NCBI RefSeq assembly: GCF_000172155.1
Contig: NZ_ABIZ01000001.1
Span: 4,063,105 to 4,127,104, forward strand
Source of the DNA: Verrucomicrobium spinosum DSM 4136 = JCM 18804
GTDB taxonomy: Bacteria; Verrucomicrobiota; Verrucomicrobiia; Verrucomicrobiales; Verrucomicrobiaceae
DNA length: 64,000 nt
Direction of reading: 5' to 3'
Position numbers and translations under genes: made by a program. This document shows, piece after piece, positions 3,011 through 46,086 of the stretch. Positions within the stretch are counted from its first letter, which is position 1. Every line of letters starts with the position of its first letter. The notes under the pieces are model-generated. The model did no database searches. It saw nothing but the letters and a program-made list of their open reading frames with translations, and was not told where the DNA came from.

Positions 3011-4066
3011 ATGGCCTCGCCTCGATACTTTGCCGATCCGCTGGTTCCGGTTGCCTACTACCACTGCATCTCGAGAGTGGTGGAGAGGCGCTTGGCGTTT
3101 GGGCCGGAGGAGAAGGAGCAGTTTGTGCGGCTCATGCGCTCGTATGAAGGCTTTTGCCAGGTGCGGGTGCTCTCTTACTGCGTGATGTCCAACCACTTCC
3201 ACATCATGGTGGAAGTCAGGAAGCGGCCTGAAGGGGAGGTGTATTCGGACGCTTGGCTGCTCAAGCAGGCGGCGTTGATCTACTCCAAGCCAGCAGTGCG
3301 AATGCTCAAGGAAGCGCTGGAAACCTTTCGCAGCCAGGGGCATGACGCGGCGGCCGAGGAACTCAAAGAGAAATACCTGGGCCGGATGTGGGATGTGAGC
3401 CAGTTCATGAAGGAACTCAAGCAACGCTTCAGTTTGTGGTTCAACAAGAGGGAGAACCGCAAGGGGACTCTCTGGGAGGAGCGGTTCACCAGTGTGTTGC
3501 TGGAAGGTGAGTTGGCGACACTCTCGGTGATGAGTGCCTACATCGATCTTAATCCGGTGAGGGCGGGGCTGGTGGAGGATCCCAAAGACTACCGCTGGTG
3601 CAGCTATGCGGAGGCGGTGGCGGGTGGACGCAAGGCGTTGTCAGCCGTGTACACGATCACGAACGAGCATCGAGCGCATGAGCGGAACCAGCAGGGGGGC
3701 TCGCAGCGGATTCCCGGTGCGGCCAAGATCCTTTCCGGCTACCGGGTATGGCTCTTTGGCCAGGGGGAGGAGGTTCGAGACGGTCACGGTTCGGATAGCC
3801 AGGTGCTGCGCAAGGGAATGAAACGCGAGACGGTAGAGCAGGTGCGCGCCGAAGATGGCAAGCTAACGCTGGTGGAGACGCTACGGCACCGGGTGACTTA
3901 TTTCACGATGGGTGTGGCCTTGGGAAGCCGGGGTTTTGTAGATGCGTTCTTTGAGGCGCGGAGGGAACAGTTTGATGCCCGCCGCAAACGAGGTGCCCGG
4001 CCCATGAGGGGCGGAAGTTTCGCGGGGATGTTCGCCTTTCGAGCGCCGAGAGTCGGCGTGGTCTGA
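3011..4066 (+). CDS. REP-associated tyrosine transposase (RAYT), copy A
   Basis: This 351-residue protein belongs to the IS200-like Y1 transposase superfamily, REP-associated branch, which nicks single-stranded DNA at REP hairpins. The HUH metal site is H62-F-H64 in CVMSNHFHIMVEV. Y177 in SAYIDLNPVRAG aligns with the catalytic Tyr of the E. coli RAYT (Y115, in its DYIYINP segment). Conserved FMKELKQRF and GTLWEERF segments are present, and a basic C-terminal extension follows residue 200. It looks intact. It lies downstream of a REP-like hairpin, and its twin at 5526-6581 differs at only three residues (E/G, V/L, I/V). No second open reading frame or cargo gene is evident. Confidence 0.9.
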   Translation: MASPRYFADPLVPVAYYHCISRVVERRLAFGPEEKEQFVRLMRSYEGFCQVRVLSYCVMSNHFHIMVEVRKRPEGEVYSDAWLLKQAALIYSKPAVRMLKEALETFRSQGHDAAAEELKEKYLGRMWDVSQFMKELKQRFSLWFNKRENRKGTLWEERFTSVLLEGELATLSVMSAYIDLNPVRAGLVEDPKDYRWCSYAEAVAGGRKALSAVYTITNEHRAHERNQQGGSQRIPGAAKILSGYRVWLFGQGEEVRDGHGSDSQVLRKGMKRETVEQVRAEDGKLTLVETLRHRVTYFTMGVALGSRGFVDAFFEARREQFDARRKRGARPMRGGSFAGMFAFRAPRVGVV

Positions 4067-5540: not shown

Positions 5541-6581
5541 TACTTTGCCGATCCGCTGGTTCCGGTTGCCTACTACCACTGCATCTCGAGAGTGGTGGAG
5601 AGGCGCTTGGCGTTTGGGCCGGAGGAGAAGGAGCAGTTTGTGCGGCTCATGCGCTCGTATGAAGGCTTTTGCCAGGTGCGGGTGCTCTCTTACTGCGTGA
5701 TGTCCAACCACTTCCACATCATGGTGGAAGTCAGGAAGCGGCCTGAAGGGGAGGTGTATTCGGACGCTTGGCTGCTCAAGCAGGCGGCGTTGATCTACTC
5801 CAAGCCAGCAGTGCGAATGCTCAAGGAAGCGCTGGAAACCTTTCGCAGCCAGGGGCATGACGCGGCGGCCGAGGAACTCAAAGAGAAATACCTGGGCCGG
5901 ATGTGGGATGTGAGCCAGTTCATGAAGGAGCTCAAGCAACGCTTCAGTTTGTGGTTTAACAAGAGGGAGAACCGCAAGGGGACTCTCTGGGAGGAGCGGT
6001 TCACCAGTGTGCTGCTGGAAGGTGAGTTGGCGACACTCTCGGTGATGAGTGCCTACATCGATCTTAATCCGGTGAGGGCGGGGCTGGTGGAGGATCCCAA
6101 AGACTACCGCTGGTGCAGCTATGCGGGGGCGGTGGCGGGTGGACGCAAGGCGTTGTCAGCCCTGTACACGATCACGAACGAGCATCGAGCGCATGAGCGG
6201 AACCAGCAGGGGGGCTCGCAGCGGATTCCCGGTGCGGCCAAGGTCCTTTCCGGCTACCGGGTATGGCTCTTTGGCCAGGGTGAAGAGGTTCGTGACGGTC
6301 ACGGTTCGGACAGCCAGGTGCTGCGCAAGGGAATGAAACGCGAGACGGTAGAGCAGGTGCGCGCCGAAGATGGCAAGCTAACGCTGGTGGAGACGCTACG
6401 GCACCGGGTGACTTATTTCACGATGGGTGTGGCCTTGGGAAGCCGGGGTTTTGTAGATGCGTTCTTTGAGGCGCGGAGGGAACAGTTTGATGCCCGCCGC
6501 AAACGAGGTGCCCGGCCCATGAGGGGCGGAAGTTTCGCGGGGATGTTCGCCTTTCGAGCGCCGAGAGTCGGCGTGGTCTGA
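5526..6581 (+). CDS. REP-associated tyrosine transposase (RAYT), copy B
   Basis: This 351-residue protein has the same architecture as the copy at 3011-4066: H62-F-H64 metal site, Y177 in SAYIDLNPVRAG, and a basic C-terminal third. It differs from copy A at three residues near positions 205-245, all conservative or in the variable part. Both catalytic elements are intact, so both copies could be active. It is preceded by the fuller REP-like element and the 86-bp duplication. There is no IS-type terminal inverted repeat around the gene itself. Confidence 0.9.
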   Translation: MASPRYFADPLVPVAYYHCISRVVERRLAFGPEEKEQFVRLMRSYEGFCQVRVLSYCVMSNHFHIMVEVRKRPEGEVYSDAWLLKQAALIYSKPAVRMLKEALETFRSQGHDAAAEELKEKYLGRMWDVSQFMKELKQRFSLWFNKRENRKGTLWEERFTSVLLEGELATLSVMSAYIDLNPVRAGLVEDPKDYRWCSYAGAVAGGRKALSALYTITNEHRAHERNQQGGSQRIPGAAKVLSGYRVWLFGQGEEVRDGHGSDSQVLRKGMKRETVEQVRAEDGKLTLVETLRHRVTYFTMGVALGSRGFVDAFFEARREQFDARRKRGARPMRGGSFAGMFAFRAPRVGVV

Positions 6582-11300: not shown

Positions 11301-11662
11301 GAAGATGAAGATCCGACCGGAGTGGCATACCGCGATGTGCCAATGCTGGGGCGCGCCTCAGTCGCTCCGGGTCCCGAACTGGCCGATGGTCCCCCGCTGA
11401 TCGCTTGAAGTGCGACAGCCAGTCCGTGAGAACAGATAAGGCCCCTCTGGGCGTCACTGCAGGCACAACGGCAGTCCACCGTCCGCGCGTCCTTCACGGT
11501 CAGGGTGGCCTTGTACCGCCGTCCCCCCTGCCCTACCAGGCCCTGATAGACCTGGCCTTGATGGGAGGCTTCCGCCACGCCACCTGTCCGCACGTATTCC
11601 CTGGCCGACTTCATTGCCTGCCAGCCACCGATTTCACCGAGCCACTTTTCCGTCACCTGCAT
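8375..11662 (-). CDS. SNF2-family ATPase/helicase with N-terminal SWIM zinc finger
   Basis: This 1095-residue protein is a DNA-translocating Swi2/Snf2 ATPase (COG0553 type). A SWIM zinc finger is at the N-terminus: C64-x-C66 and C77-x-H79. A long middle region (about 150-600) of unknown fold follows. The first RecA-like lobe has Walker A DEMGLGKT near residue 640 and the DExx box LDEAS near 750. The second lobe begins near 940 with KALIFSQF and ends with motif VI DRAHRIGQ near 1034. The substrate is unknown; bacterial members act on transcription complexes or in phage defence. It is divergent from parA, with a 60-bp promoter region between. It could also be a component of a defence island, but no companion nuclease is seen. 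Confidence 0.9.
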   Translation of the reverse strand: MQVTEKWLGEIGGWQAMKSAREYVRTGGVAEASHQGQVYQGLVGQGGRRYKATLTVKDARTVDCRCACSDAQRGLICSHGLAVALQAISGGPSASSGPGATEARPSIGTSRYATPVGSSSSRGAPSHASDVKSTSATPKAVLDLNTVPAGKFTIYIPLSHLSQLPKGTVPVFLDFQAGGETKEAEIAQWLFTRGLKCQSMPLRLPAADLGELFTTLKGHPRVHNGLPALSAKPSGGVRTSLKQLVINDLHITDEIARVNISQSVALHVLSSALNVHNVGNVSSVVDATTGRIMLLDGPHVNNLRPFLDELFTRRKVERTPRWVAANLGALGEIMDVESPAAPLAKVRVVPADPVFGLRLDGSLRRVEASLTVHPVPHASHPITLGVDFGREWRETDLYPLPDPSGDPLRFRHRNLLREQGAWQRLESAGFRMDHQGVLAINGESEVLRFVATELPRLKSLFEIQDGDGWRNATRGLATIRPQMRTKEDPRDSSAGDSRQGTGMDWLSLEVAYEAADGFRIARQEVLRLIRSGKRDVRAQDGRRYLLDIEGCEELEETLQDVESRFGQGGQTIAVRSRQLGVLSDFLPTGKSAVPQKAAALELSEIKTLLSELGNTLRPYQLEGVQWLEQHTRSGAAGLLADEMGLGKTVQTLALLRIIRGRVNAAGGKGQGGEPVGPALVICPTSLLSNWSEEAARFTPELKTHVSHDAGRKEKLGSLADFDVVFTSYALIIRDLEYYANLKFCVIVLDEASYIRNPDTAAAKALCQLKAEARFALTGTPVENSIKDLWSIFAFMLPRYLPVLEDFQSRFVKPLSQAEGKSAQSRAIMERLRRLIRPYLFRRTKREVAKDLPEKIEKVVWCELTREQNEVYQRLLEEGREEIRSARKRTGQGSARMTMFTVLLRLRQVCNDLRLLKLGDHFKGQPGGKWPMLEELLQEIIDGGGKALIFSQFVGMLRLVRDKVQSLEIAHSYLDGGTQDRGGQVSAFQSDPERKLFLISLKAGGYGLNLTAADHVLLVDPWWNPAVEAQAIDRAHRIGQGRPVTAYRLATRGTVEEKILKLQEKKRSIMDMTLEDDPTVMAGVSDSELEEMLMGA

Positions 11663-11722
11663 GGGGATTTATCTTGCTGTCATGCAGGTTTGTGATGATG
11701 GAATGCGCCCGTCAAGCTGCGT

Positions 11723-12499
11723 ATGAGGATAGTTGCGATCGCGAACCAAAAGGGAGGTGTGGGAAAGACCACCACATCTCTAAATTTGTCTGCCTGTTTG
11801 GCAGCAAGAGGGCTGCGCGTGCTGCTCATTGACCTTGACCCCCAGGCCAATACGACCAGCGGTCTGGGGATCGCTCAAGAGGAAGGGGGCAGCTTGTACC
11901 CCTGTCTGGTGAGCGACGTGAATCCCACCCAGGTGATCCGGAGCACCCGCCTGCCGAACCTTTCCATCATCCGCTCCCACCAGGAACTGGCGGGGTGCGA
12001 AGTCGAGCTGGCCCAGACGGGCCATCATCTCACGCGTCTGCGGGATGTGATGAAGCCGCTGCGCTACAGCGGCCACTTTGACTACGCCATCATGGACTGC
12101 CCTCCCTCCCTGGGCGTGCTCATGACCGGCGCTCTCGCCGCGGCCGATGAACTGCTGGTGCCGATCCAGTGCGAGTACTTCGGCCTGGAAGGTCTGTCCA
12201 AGATCGTGCAGATCGTCCAGCAGATCCGCGAAAGCGGGGCGAATCCCGCCCTGGCGCTGGAGGGCATCGTGATGACGATGTTCGACTCCCGGATGAACCT
12301 CTCCCAGCAGGTGGTCTCCGACGTGCGCAACTACTTCTCCCAGGTGGTGTACGACACCATCATCCCGCGCACGATCCGTCTGGGCGAAGCCCCGAGCTTT
12401 GGCAAGTCGATCATCGAGTACGAGCCGAATGGTCGCGGTGCCCAGGCCTACTTGTCCCTGGCCGAGGAGTTCCTGCGCCGACACGGGGATTCTCGGTAG
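11723..12499 (+). CDS. parA: ParA/Soj-family partitioning ATPase
   Basis: This 258-residue ATPase has the deviant Walker A motif KGGVGKTT (residues 10-17), the second conserved lysine region DLDPQANTTSG, Walker A' MDCPPSLG, and NxVMTMFDSR-like segments typical of chromosomal ParA/Soj. It would position or segregate DNA on the nucleoid with ParB. No parB follows; the next gene is an ECF sigma factor 150 bases downstream. A parS-like site occurs at 8133. The start ATG at 11723 gives the canonical MRIVAIANQKGG N-terminus. An orphan ParA for another cargo remains possible. Confidence 0.92.
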   Translation: MRIVAIANQKGGVGKTTTSLNLSACLAARGLRVLLIDLDPQANTTSGLGIAQEEGGSLYPCLVSDVNPTQVIRSTRLPNLSIIRSHQELAGCEVELAQTGHHLTRLRDVMKPLRYSGHFDYAIMDCPPSLGVLMTGALAAADELLVPIQCEYFGLEGLSKIVQIVQQIRESGANPALALEGIVMTMFDSRMNLSQQVVSDVRNYFSQVVYDTIIPRTIRLGEAPSFGKSIIEYEPNGRGAQAYLSLAEEFLRRHGDSR

Positions 12500-15061: not shown

Positions 15062-15574
15062 CGCAGCAGGGTTGGAGTACCGCTTTTAAGCGGAATCACT
15101 TCTCGCGCGTCCCATGTCGAGATTCCCATCCCCAGCGCTGCCAAGCGAACGCCAAGGGGTCAGTCGCTTCGCACCGGGAGCGCGATCAAGGGCCACTTGT
15201 AACCTGACTCCGCTTAAAAGCCAATGCCATCAGGGAAAAGCTGGTGAGGTCGATGATTCGCCTTTGGCGAACGAGCTGAGGGCTGAAAGCCCGGCATGAT
15301 AGCAGCCTTGGGCAACGCCCAAGGTTGGCGTTCGTTTTAGAGGTTGAGGGCTGTAGGCCCGGGGTCATTCAGGGATGCTCGTCGTGGGCAGGATGGATGA
15401 GGCCGGGCCTTCAGCCCTCCGATTCCCTTTCAACCCCTAACCTGGGGCGCTGCCCCAGGCTGGTATGACACCGGACTGTTGGTCCTCAGTTTCATCATGC
15501 AACGGCGTTGATCGCTCTGCCCAACCTTTTCCCTGATGGCATTGGCTTAAAAACGGTACTCCAACCCTGCTGCG
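15062..15574. repeat. 513-bp foldback (MITE-like) element
   Basis: The ends are a perfect 21-bp inverted repeat (15062-15082 against 15554-15574, CGCAGCAGGGTTGGAGTACC...). Just inside is a perfect 23-bp inverted pair at 15218-15240 and 15526-15548 (AAGCCAATGCCATCAGGG...). The middle holds strong hairpins: CCTTGGGC/GCCCAAGG (15306-15324) and CCTGGGGC/GCCCCAGG (15441-15459), plus inverted GGGCTGAAAGCCCGG and CCGGGCCTTCAGCCC blocks. It contains no transposase, so it is non-autonomous. On the right arm the two repeats are only five bases apart, while on the left they are split by a further insertion (15083-15220). Confidence 0.85.
15083..15220. repeat. 138-bp insertion with its own 11-bp terminal inverted repeats
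   Basis: CTTTTAAGCGG (15083-15093) is exactly inverted as CCGCTTAAAAG (15210-15220). The right arm of the enclosing foldback lacks this sequence and shows only AAAAA at the corresponding place, which indicates a secondary insertion into the left arm. No open reading frame fits within it. It is too small to code for a transposase. Confidence 0.75.
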
Positions 15575-43090: not shown

Positions 43091-44503
43091 ATGGCATTCA
43101 TCCATGACGACTTCCTCCTGACGACCAAGGCAGCGCGCCGACTGTATCATGAGTTTGCTGAGAACGAGCCGATCTACGACTACCATACCCATCTGCCGGT
43201 GGACGAGATCGCGCGTGACCAGCGCTTCGAGAGTCTCGCTCACATCTGGCTGGGAGGTGACCACTATAAATGGCGGGCTATGCGCGCCAACGGAGTGCCT
43301 GAAACCCACGTCACGGGCCAGGCTCCTTGGAAAGAGAAGTTCCTCGCATTTGCCAAAACGGTTCCCAACACGCTCCGGAATCCCCTTTATCACTGGACCG
43401 CCCTGGAGCTCAAGCGGTTCTTCGGCGTGGACGAACTCCTGAGCGAGGCCACCGCAGAGTCCATCTGGAACCGTTGCAATGAGCAACTGGCGACGCCCGA
43501 GTTCTCGTGCCGGAACCTCCTCACCCGCTCGAATGTACGCGTGGTGTGCTCCACCGATGATCCGACGGACTCTCTGGAACATCACTTGGAAGTGGCCAAA
43601 CTCTCGAGTTTCCCTGTAAAGGCTTATCCAACCTTCCGCCCCGACGCTGGCATGCGGTTGGAAGATTTGAACGCCTGGAATACGTGGACCAACAAGCTCG
43701 CTGAAGTGAGCGGCGAGGCCTGTGATACGCTTGACTCCTTCCTGACCGGCCTCCGCAAACGACACGACTTCTTCCACTCCGTAGGTGGTCGTCTCAGCGA
43801 TCACGGACTCACGGCGATGGACACAGAGACGGCGACGGACGCCGAAGCCAAGGCTATCTTCGACAAGGCCCGCGCCAATCAGGCTCTCACCGCCAGCGAT
43901 GTCATCCGCTTCCGTTCCTATCTGATGCTCTACTTCGGCCAGCTCGATGCGGAAAAAGGCTGGACCAAGCAGCTCCACCTCGGGGCTCTGCGCAACACGA
44001 ACACGCGCCTTTTCAACCAGCTTGGGCGCGACATCGGTTGCGATTCCATCGACGACCCAGTGCACGCTGCCGGGCTCAAGTTTTACCTCGATACCCTGGA
44101 ACAGCGCGGCCACCTGCCCAAGGTCGTGTTGTACAACCTGAACCCGAAGGACAACTACGTCTTCGCCACGATCGTCGGCAACTACCAAGGCAACGACCAG
44201 GGGATCGCCGGAAGGATGCAGTTTGGCTCCGGCTGGTGGTTCCTGGACACGATGGAAGGCATGGAATGGCAGATCAACTCCCTCAGTTCCACCGGCCTCC
44301 TCAGCCGCTCCGTGGGCATGCTGACCGACTCCCGCAGCTTCCTCTCCCCACCCCGCCACGAGTACTTCCGCCGAATTCTGTGCAACCTCGTCGGCCGCGA
44401 CGTCGAAAACGGCCTCGTCCCCGACGACTACGACCTCGTCGGCACCATGATCAAGCGCATCTGCTATGCGAATGCGCATGAGTACTTTGGCATGGACGTT
44501 TGA
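43091..44503 (+). CDS. uxaC: Uronate isomerase
   Basis: This 470-residue protein of the amidohydrolase superfamily converts glucuronate to fructuronate and galacturonate to tagaturonate. The metal motif H32-x-H34 lies in IYDYHTHLPVDEI. Other family landmarks are HIWLGGDHYKWRAMR, VVCSTDDPTDSLEHH and FGSGWWFLDTMEGME. Length matches the family. It supports breakdown of uronic-acid polymers, in line with the sulfatases in this window. An S23-type cassette begins ten bases after its stop. A 466-codon frame on the opposite strand is a shadow caused by GC-rich codon use. Confidence 0.97.
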   Translation: MAFIHDDFLLTTKAARRLYHEFAENEPIYDYHTHLPVDEIARDQRFESLAHIWLGGDHYKWRAMRANGVPETHVTGQAPWKEKFLAFAKTVPNTLRNPLYHWTALELKRFFGVDELLSEATAESIWNRCNEQLATPEFSCRNLLTRSNVRVVCSTDDPTDSLEHHLEVAKLSSFPVKAYPTFRPDAGMRLEDLNAWNTWTNKLAEVSGEACDTLDSFLTGLRKRHDFFHSVGGRLSDHGLTAMDTETATDAEAKAIFDKARANQALTASDVIRFRSYLMLYFGQLDAEKGWTKQLHLGALRNTNTRLFNQLGRDIGCDSIDDPVHAAGLKFYLDTLEQRGHLPKVVLYNLNPKDNYVFATIVGNYQGNDQGIAGRMQFGSGWWFLDTMEGMEWQINSLSSTGLLSRSVGMLTDSRSFLSPPRHEYFRRILCNLVGRDVENGLVPDDYDLVGTMIKRICYANAHEYFGMDV

Positions 44504-44512
44504 GGTAGTTTA

Positions 44513-45056
44513 GACGCTGCGCTGGTTGAGACGGTGCCGCCGGAGGCGGCACCTGTTGAGACACGTCGTTGGTTGAGACGCTTCGCTGGATCATGAATGA
44601 GAACGTTCATCGCAAACAGTTCCCTTTTGAAAAGCTTGGCGTCTGGCAGGACTCACGAAGCTTGATCACAGAGATCTATAGACTAACTCGAACCTTCCCG
44701 AAGACCGAGGCATTCGGTCTGGTTTCGCAACTGAATCGAGCGAGCGTTTCCGTAGCATGCAACCTGGCTGAAGGAACCGCCCGCACCAGTGCCAAAGACC
44801 AAGCGCATTTTTCTCAACTTGCGTACAGTTCCCTCATGGAAGTGGGTTGCCTTGTTGCAGTCAGCGCTGATCTCGGCTTGATCAGCGAAGAAGATCAGGC
44901 ACGTATTCGCAGCGCTACCTTTATGTTGTCAGCTCGCATTCACAATCTCCGCAAGTCCCAACTCTCCCGCTCTGACAAACCAGCGTAGCGTCTCAACCAA
45001 CAACGTGTCTCAACAGGTGCCGCCTCCGGCGGCACCGTCTCAACCAGCGCAGCGTC
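44513..45056 (+). mobile_element. S23/IVP cassette bounded by 77-bp inverted repeats (544 bp)
   Basis: The left arm 44513-44589 and right arm 44980-45056 are inverted copies matching at 75 of 77 bases. Each arm holds a hairpin GTGCCGCC-gga-GGCGGCAC and the word GGTTGAGAC twice. The four-helix-bundle gene begins three bases after the left arm and its stop codon lies inside the right arm. Intervening sequences in 23S rRNA have the same plan, an S23 gene between pairing arms, but this one is in an intergenic site between uxaC and hldD. No target-site duplication was identified. Confidence 0.9.
44593..44988 (+). CDS. Four-helix bundle protein (23S rRNA-intervening sequence protein family)
   Basis: This 131-residue protein carries the S23/IVP signature: FEKLGVWQDSRSLITEIY, FPKTEAFGLVSQLNRASVSVACNLAEG (landmarks LVSQLNRASVSV and NLAEGTAR), FSQLAYSSLMEV. 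The fold is an antiparallel four-helix bundle forming a pentamer in solved relatives; the function is unknown. I chose the ATG at 44593 because upstream codons lie in the inverted repeat. The last three codons and the stop lie within the right arm, so gene and repeat have co-evolved as one unit. Confidence 0.93.
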   Translation: MNENVHRKQFPFEKLGVWQDSRSLITEIYRLTRTFPKTEAFGLVSQLNRASVSVACNLAEGTARTSAKDQAHFSQLAYSSLMEVGCLVAVSADLGLISEEDQARIRSATFMLSARIHNLRKSQLSRSDKPA

Positions 45057-45078
45057 TCCTCTTTCCTCCTCCCCTTCC

Positions 45079-46086
45079 ATGCCATCCTCCCGTATTCTCG
45101 TCACCGGCGGTGCCGGCTTCATCGGTTCCGCACTTGTCTGGGCTCTTAACCAGAGGGGGGAGGAGAACATTGTTGTCACAGATTCACTGGGCACGGATGA
45201 AAAATGGAAAAACCTGGTGGCTCTAAAATATGCTGACTATCTGGATGCAGCGGACCTGCTGGAGGCGGTCGCGAACCGCCCAGAGTCGCTGGGCAAGTTC
45301 GATGTGATCTATCATCTGGGGGCGAACTCTGCCACGACGGAGCGGGACGCGAACCACCTGATGAAGAACAACTTCGAGTACACCAAGGTGCTGGCCCACT
45401 GGGCCATCGCGACCGGGGCGAAGTTTGTGTACGCCTCCTCTGCGGCCACCTACGGGGACGGTGCTCACGGCATGGATGACAAAATGCAGGACATCTCTGT
45501 GCTTCGCCCGCTTAACATGTACGGGTACTCGAAACACCTCTTCGACCTCTACGCTCAGCGTGCGGGCATCGCCAAGCGGGTCGTGGGTCTGAAGTATTTC
45601 AACGTGTACGGCCCCAATGAAAACCACAAAGGCGACATGCGCTCCGTGGTGAACAAGGCGTTCGACCAGATCCTCACCAACGGCAAGGTGCAGCTCTTCA
45701 AGAGTCACCGCCCCGACTTTAAGGATGGTGAACAAATGCGGGACTTCCTCTACGTGAAGGACGCCGTGGCCATGACCCTTTTCCTCGGCAACCATCCCCT
45801 TTCCGGCGGACTTTATAACCTGGGCTCTGGCTTGGCGCACACTTGGCTACAGCTCGTCACCGGCATCTTCCGCGCCCTGGAACTCCCACCACACATTGAG
45901 TTCATCGACCTTCCCGCCCACCTGCGGGAGAAGTACCAGTACTACACCTGTGCCGACATCAGCAAGCTACGCCAGCTCGGCTACAAAGACGCCATCACCC
46001 CGCTGAACGATGCCGTAGCCGACTATGTCCGCTCCTACATGGTCCCTGGCAAACTCCTGGGGGACGGTGAAGCGAGGATCGGGTGA
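45079..46086 (+). CDS. hldD: ADP-L-glycero-D-manno-heptose 6-epimerase
   Basis: This 335-residue short-chain dehydrogenase/epimerase has the NAD(P)-binding GGAGFIG at residues 10-16 and catalytic Y148-x3-K152 in NMYGYSKHLFD. DSLGTDEKWKNL and KYFNVYGPNE match HldD closely. It makes ADP-L-glycero-D-manno-heptose for the lipopolysaccharide inner core, so the organism has a Gram-negative envelope. No other hld gene is adjacent. It starts 22 bases after the S23 cassette, which may have altered its promoter. Confidence 0.95.
   Translation: MPSSRILVTGGAGFIGSALVWALNQRGEENIVVTDSLGTDEKWKNLVALKYADYLDAADLLEAVANRPESLGKFDVIYHLGANSATTERDANHLMKNNFEYTKVLAHWAIATGAKFVYASSAATYGDGAHGMDDKMQDISVLRPLNMYGYSKHLFDLYAQRAGIAKRVVGLKYFNVYGPNENHKGDMRSVVNKAFDQILTNGKVQLFKSHRPDFKDGEQMRDFLYVKDAVAMTLFLGNHPLSGGLYNLGSGLAHTWLQLVTGIFRALELPPHIEFIDLPAHLREKYQYYTCADISKLRQLGYKDAITPLNDAVADYVRSYMVPGKLLGDGEARIG

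Follow-up and report, generated by a model that had tools for sequence, protein, structure and literature searches.

Stem-bounded S23/IVP gene cassettes between protein-coding genes of Verrucomicrobium spinosum and other bacteria

Introduction

The S23/IVP protein family is named after inserts in rRNA, and to our knowledge no function is known for it. In Verrucomicrobium spinosum DSM 4136, a gene of this family lies between uxaC and hldD, enclosed by two inverted repeats. What kind of unit is this, and how did it come to sit between two protein-coding genes?

Several known systems offer points of comparison. In Coxiella burnetii, the intervening sequence (IVS) of the 23S rRNA comprises 428 nt, is closed by a 28-bp terminal stem, is excised by RNase III and carries a decaying S23 open reading frame (PMC4990558). 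Inserts in the rRNA of CPR bacteria also carry an S23 domain (PMC11270868), and Avd, a protein of diversity-generating retroelements, resembles the S23/IVP family (PMC10053308). Inverted pairs of the heptamer GGGAATC, which are STRR-like, have been described in Xanthomonas (PMC4692102). Furthermore, the legend of a figure on CRISPR association lists S23/IVP (PMC10910872).

The cassette between uxaC and hldD

We analysed a stretch of 64,000 nucleotides of the V. spinosum genome, referred to as the window. The upstream gene uxaC (ORF 43091-44503, plus strand) ends with a stop codon at 44501-44503, and the left arm begins 8 nt further on (44512-44589, plus strand). The S23/IVP gene follows on the same strand at 44593-44988 and encodes a four-helix-bundle protein of 131 amino acids. 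It begins with an ATG (44593) three bases past the left arm and stops with a TAG (44986-44988) within the right arm. The latter (44980-45057, minus strand) was detected by an inverted-repeat search as an inverted copy of the left arm and is separated by 21 nt from the start codon of hldD (45079-45081, plus strand; ORF 45079-46086). Hence, the cassette fills the gap between the uxaC stop and the hldD start, and all three genes are codirectional. The arms measure 78 nt each, are 97% complementary and are spaced 390 nt apart. Both contain a GGTGCCGCC/GGCGGCACC hairpin (44533-44553 on the left, 45016-45036 on the right), which was found in none of 100 shuffles. Compared with 464 kb sampled from the same genome, the cassette is the top inverted repeat, and the predicted RNA fold of 44501-45081 reaches -288.8 kcal/mol (z -15.7), a stability attained by none of 100 shuffled sequences.

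Family searches identified the flanks as UxaC (PF02614, 632 bits) and the ADP-heptose epimerase HldD (TIGR02197, 378 bits). The S23/IVP protein matches PF05635 (99 bits) and TIGR02436 (97.5 bits), well over the cut-off, and has a solved relative in 2gsc (E 6e-23). The latter is XCC0516, a protein of Xanthomonas campestris, in whose genome inverted GGGAATC heptamers are well known. A defence or phage family was rejected, since neither PADLOC nor PHROGs returned a match for it. No recombinase or transposase is encoded inside the cassette. Searches for rRNA were negative both in the 64-kb window and at 40 additional S23 loci from two phyla, and a location in rRNA was consequently rejected for all of these sites.

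These results bear out the sequence-only reading, which had described near-identical inverted arms around an S23/IVP gene that starts three bases past the left arm and ends inside the right one, a hairpin in each arm, and a location outside rRNA between uxaC and hldD. It had also likened the layout to that of an IVS; the S23/IVP protein and the stem-forming ends are indeed both present, the rRNA location is not.

S23/IVP cassettes in the genome and across phyla

The V. spinosum genome, a single contig of 8,220,857 bases, contains eight PF05635 matches, seven of which exceed the cut-off, and each of these seven genes is flanked by inverted arms. The arm sequence differs for every cassette (e.g. 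CAGTGGGCAGTGGGCAGTG, GGTAAGTGGTGAGAGG, AATTATAAATTGAGAATT and TGGAGTATTGGAGTGATGG), and arms of different cassettes in one genome are unrelated. The other junctions are ilvB/ilvN, metK/ahcY, an ABC transporter pair, pilB/pilC, acrA/acrB and DUF1592/DUF1552, with flanks assigned by eye; uxaC and hldD alone were named via family search. In relatives, a genome can contain as many as eleven S23 genes. With these counts, the idea of one mobile copy confined to the window was rejected.

To quantify the layout, the 220 nt before each gene were aligned locally against the 220 nt after it. An arm score of at least 16 was reached at 87% of 111 loci, compared to 3.8% of placements with the same spacing elsewhere within the same loci. 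With slightly wider flanks, 82 of 87 S23 loci in the family of V. spinosum showed inverted arms. Because one set of 80 loci had been chosen by similarity to one subfamily, evenly drawn samples of Bacteroidota and Pseudomonadota were added, in which mainly the top-scoring loci were inspected individually. Arms were present at 74% of 53 loci in Bacteroidota (background 1.1%) and at 80% of 30 loci in Pseudomonadota (background 3.1%). The gene itself was found in 57 of 59 genomes of the V. spinosum family, 45 of 61 Bacteroidota and 44 of 249 Pseudomonadota. Stem-bounded S23/IVP cassettes therefore occur in at least three bacterial phyla, and the one in the window belongs to a widespread class. The usual home of S23/IVP in the sampled lineages is an arm-bounded cassette between operon genes.

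Position and architecture of the arms

With neighbouring genes called by codon scoring, both neighbours lay on the S23 strand at 71 of 84 loci, both on the opposite strand at seven, and on mixed strands at six. The distance from the upstream stop to the left arm had a median of 1 nt (25 nt or less in 68 of 78 cases), and that from the right arm to the next in-frame ATG a median of 10 nt (25 nt or less in 52 of 72). As read from these predicted genes, the data show that the cassette fills the space between the stop codon of one gene and the start codon of the next, mostly where both point the same way.

The left arm, on the 5' side of the gene, contained more G than C in 93 of 97 and 58 of 63 loci. 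Arms were identical to themselves at a lag of 7 nt in a proportion of 0.49-0.60 versus about 0.28, with echoes at lag 14 and, where tested, 21. A shared heptad consensus of approximately RGTYGAG exceeded a column-permuted null, although many of the loci involved are related. The window is different in this respect: its arms are composed of units of about 17 nt, such as GGTTGAGACGCTTCGCT in the left one, and not of heptads. Pairing between arms amounted to 0.84 in register versus 0.61 when shifted by 7, and successive heptads matched at 0.58. The two arms are thus inverted copies of one sequence, and two independent tandem arrays were rejected as their source. Taken from the aligned arms, these values show inverted copies, usually of a degenerate 7-nt repeat, with fixed G-rich/C-rich polarity. 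It may be speculated that such heptad arms, misread as repeat arrays, might account for the listing of S23/IVP in a CRISPR-association context.

The Xanthomonas heptamers resemble the arms in their 7-nt units, their intergenic location, their inverted pairs and a length that varies between relatives while the site is kept. However, their description makes no link to S23/IVP and reports no gene enclosed by inverted copies that match in register (PMC4692102). In the literature covered, which included few subscription papers and preprints, we found no paper linking S23/IVP genes to heptad arms outside rRNA, and the novelty of this association is provisional.

Occupied and vacant junctions

Two congeners have the same uxaC-cassette-hldD arrangement as V. 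spinosum, at 86% and 84% identity across 3 kb. A third relative lacks the S23 gene at this site; its uxaC-hldD gap of about 163 nt holds a weak inverted pair of the arm type. Other junctions are empty in some relatives, with gaps of 19-57 nt, while stems without an S23 gene occupy junctions L075 and L076 and a single arm remains as a scar at L079 and L081. Relatives thus yielded both empty sites and further full copies, as well as arm-only junctions, so that one and the same junction can be filled, arm-only or empty, depending on the genome.

In having an inverted-repeat-bounded unit, empty sites and gene-less versions, the cassettes are similar to transposons and MITEs. Unlike these, their ends differ between lineages, the unit contains no transposase, and the position is tied to stop/start junctions. 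No target-site duplication was evident by eye between empty and filled junctions, in pairs that did not include a precise recent insertion.

Replacement and movement of the unit

We compared V. spinosum with two congeners cassette by cassette at 4-fold degenerate sites. Some cassettes have descended vertically like their flanks, with 4-fold divergences of 0.13-0.24 and arms 94-100% alike. Other cassettes, including that of the window, are saturated (4-fold divergence 0.55-0.82, DNA identity of the gene 63-78%) and differ in both arms, whereas their upstream genes show divergences of only 0.13-0.36. For the window cassette and the congener G001, the flanks are 95% and 94% identical and the upstream 4-fold divergence is 0.15, compared to 66% identity and a divergence of 0.55 for the gene. 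Identity in 40-nt bins between the window cassette and a congener drops at the arms and recovers immediately outside. A saturated cassette amid little-changed flanks cannot be explained by descent at the rate of the flanks, but can be explained by discrete replacement of the whole unit; local hypermutation may be an alternative source of such divergence. Among the vertical pairs, S23 proteins are 96-99% identical at 4-fold divergences of 0.13-0.14, which indicates that the protein is kept by selection, unlike the decaying open reading frame of Coxiella. Some cassettes are decaying nevertheless, as the S23 reading frame is shortened or interrupted by an in-frame stop at L069/L241 and L230.

On an S23 tree of 85 rows, built on few alignment columns, the junction labels required 11 changes for 12 groups. 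This is the minimum possible, compared to a mean of 37.3 for shuffled labels, none of which scored as low in 200 trials. S23 lineages therefore mostly stay at one junction over long times. The clade of the window gene (support 99) is nested in a supported set (100) together with cassettes of a different junction, which suggests that S23 lineages do move. In line with this, arm similarity between cassettes with unrelated flanks increased with S23 identity (Spearman 0.296, null maximum 0.081), also within one family (0.215, null maximum 0.101), while it was at baseline between different cassettes of one genome. Arms and gene therefore move jointly. Joint replacement and an arm motif that follows the S23 lineage and not the genome make gene plus arms one slowly mobile unit. 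Sequence comparison thus shows that gene and arms have been lost, replaced and moved to other junctions jointly over evolutionary time, while the flanks stayed; the movement itself we infer from comparing genomes.

Alternatively, the S23 gene could be an ordinary, vertically inherited gene in repeat-rich intergenic DNA. Its arms would then have arisen via local slippage and inverted duplication, and its divergence from fast evolution. Junction-bound lineages and arm-type repeats at many gene-less sites fit this explanation, as do the Xanthomonas heptamer repeats, which vary in length and sequence (PMC4692102). We nevertheless regard it as unlikely: in one and the same pair of genomes, 4-fold sites are saturated at some junctions and unsaturated at others, the arm motif tracks the S23 lineage at unrelated junctions, and S23 genes are near-universally paired with arms.

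The sequence-only reading had proposed a self-contained unit in intergenic DNA, and joint replacement, lineage-linked arms and the filled, arm-only and empty junctions support this well. It had counted two observations against mobility, namely a locus shared by relatives without a second copy, and arms without the gene. Both apply in part. Two congeners do share the locus. A search with the window arm hit 54 stretches, spread over 31 places of the V. spinosum genome, among which only its own two arms lie near an S23 gene; the repeat thus recurs at about 30 gene-less places. Movement is therefore slow, and the arm repeat also exists outside the cassette.

Two further observations concern single junctions. 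At the DUF1592/DUF1552 junction, the S23 family present in one set of genera (L211 and L235) is unrelated to that in others (L259 and L298), as if the site had been filled twice independently. In addition, L243, from a genome of the V. spinosum family, and L164, from a Deltaproteobacteria MAG, carry S23 genes that are 53% identical and AGGCACAAAGG-type arms at unrelated junctions, which hints at transfer between phyla.

DNA or RNA stem

The cassette might also be an mRNA version of the 23S rRNA IVS, in which the arms would form a stem in the operon transcript, RNase III would excise the insert and selection would act on the RNA. The terminal inverted repeats around an S23 ORF and the RNase III excision of the Coxiella IVS (PMC4990558) provide the precedent, and the very stable predicted RNA stem and the strong bias to the operon sense strand (71 versus 7) are consistent with it. 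Selection on RNA pairing should favour G·U over A·C mismatches, but over 150 loci the arms contained 243 G·U and 301 A·C mismatches. Since G·U is not above A·C, a DNA-level cause accounts more readily for the complementarity. Moreover, some cassettes are antisense to both neighbours. We consider this alternative improbable; RNA-level selection on the stem found no support, and neither did the suggestion of the sequence-only reading that the unit is retained as an RNA stem. Cutting by RNase III may be a by-product of the stem.

The sequence-only reading had placed the mobilising enzyme in trans, and such an enzyme may exist. That it is a Y1 (REP-type) transposase or reverse transcriptase resident in the genome, moving a non-autonomous element with S23 as an Avd-like accessory, is very improbable. 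The genome does contain many Y1_Tnp (PF01797) matches, of which two lie in the window (at about 3053-3547 and 5568-6062), and five reverse transcriptase matches, three of them equal in score, and S23 is similar to Avd, with which retroelement reverse transcriptases are partnered (PMC10053308). However, nothing links either enzyme to the cassette: none of the matches reported is near any S23 cassette of the genome, and the arms have no common end sequence that one enzyme could read. Avd belongs to a related four-helix-bundle family, yet no reverse transcriptase adjoins the S23 genes of V. spinosum, all five matches being far away.

Discussion

The best explanation overall, and in our judgement a reasonably probable one, is a stem-bounded mobile S23/IVP cassette with hairpin arms, in whose upkeep and spread the protein assists. 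The paired arms would serve as a DNA hairpin or as an intermediate of this kind and would be recognised via their periodicity, probably by an oligomeric S23/IVP protein together with a host enzyme. In this way, the S23 gene could help to maintain and spread its own cassette, and placement after a stop and before a start codon would spare the operon from harm. Arm-only stems may be gene-less relatives or remnants.

The cassettes share with the 23S IVS the protein family, a similar size, complementary inverted ends around one ORF and a patchy, apparently horizontal distribution. Unlike the 23S IVS, they sit between protein-coding genes, occur several per genome and have arms that consist mostly of heptad repeats with a lineage-specific motif. 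The cassette works like an intervening sequence, but is neither a 23S IVS nor an ordinary transposon.

A broader generalisation is possible and offered tentatively. S23/IVP cassettes would then be bacteria-wide mobile elements, in which a ring of the S23/IVP protein reads its own hairpin arms of 7-nt repeats and steers insertion between stop and start codons. The rRNA IVS would be members that landed in rRNA, and many intergenic heptamers gene-less relatives. The data suggest a type of slow mobile element that has been overlooked. They connect an orphan gene family with an unexplained class of repeats, both of them common, and the spread of intervening sequences becomes a directly testable question.

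Gene-less repeats in the V. spinosum genome

In the 464 kb sampled, about five heptad-type stems lacked an S23 gene, some with other elements nested inside; such stems may be derivatives of the cassette or hosts to it. A long inverted repeat at L203:3835-4600 has window-type arms and no S23 gene, and its loop contains a duplicated block. An element of about 370 nt with CCAATGCCATCAGGGAAAA at its borders recurs at L186:8481-8851, L187:18257-18627 and L200 (about 11600-12000); in L187 and L200 it is nested within heptad-type stems. Finally, a family of REP-like palindromes (TCCGCAGCAGGGTTGGAGTACCGCTTTTAAGCGGAATCA) is present at 15062-15574 of the window and in L186, L189 and L202, frequently in inverted pairs with a spacing of about 85 nt.
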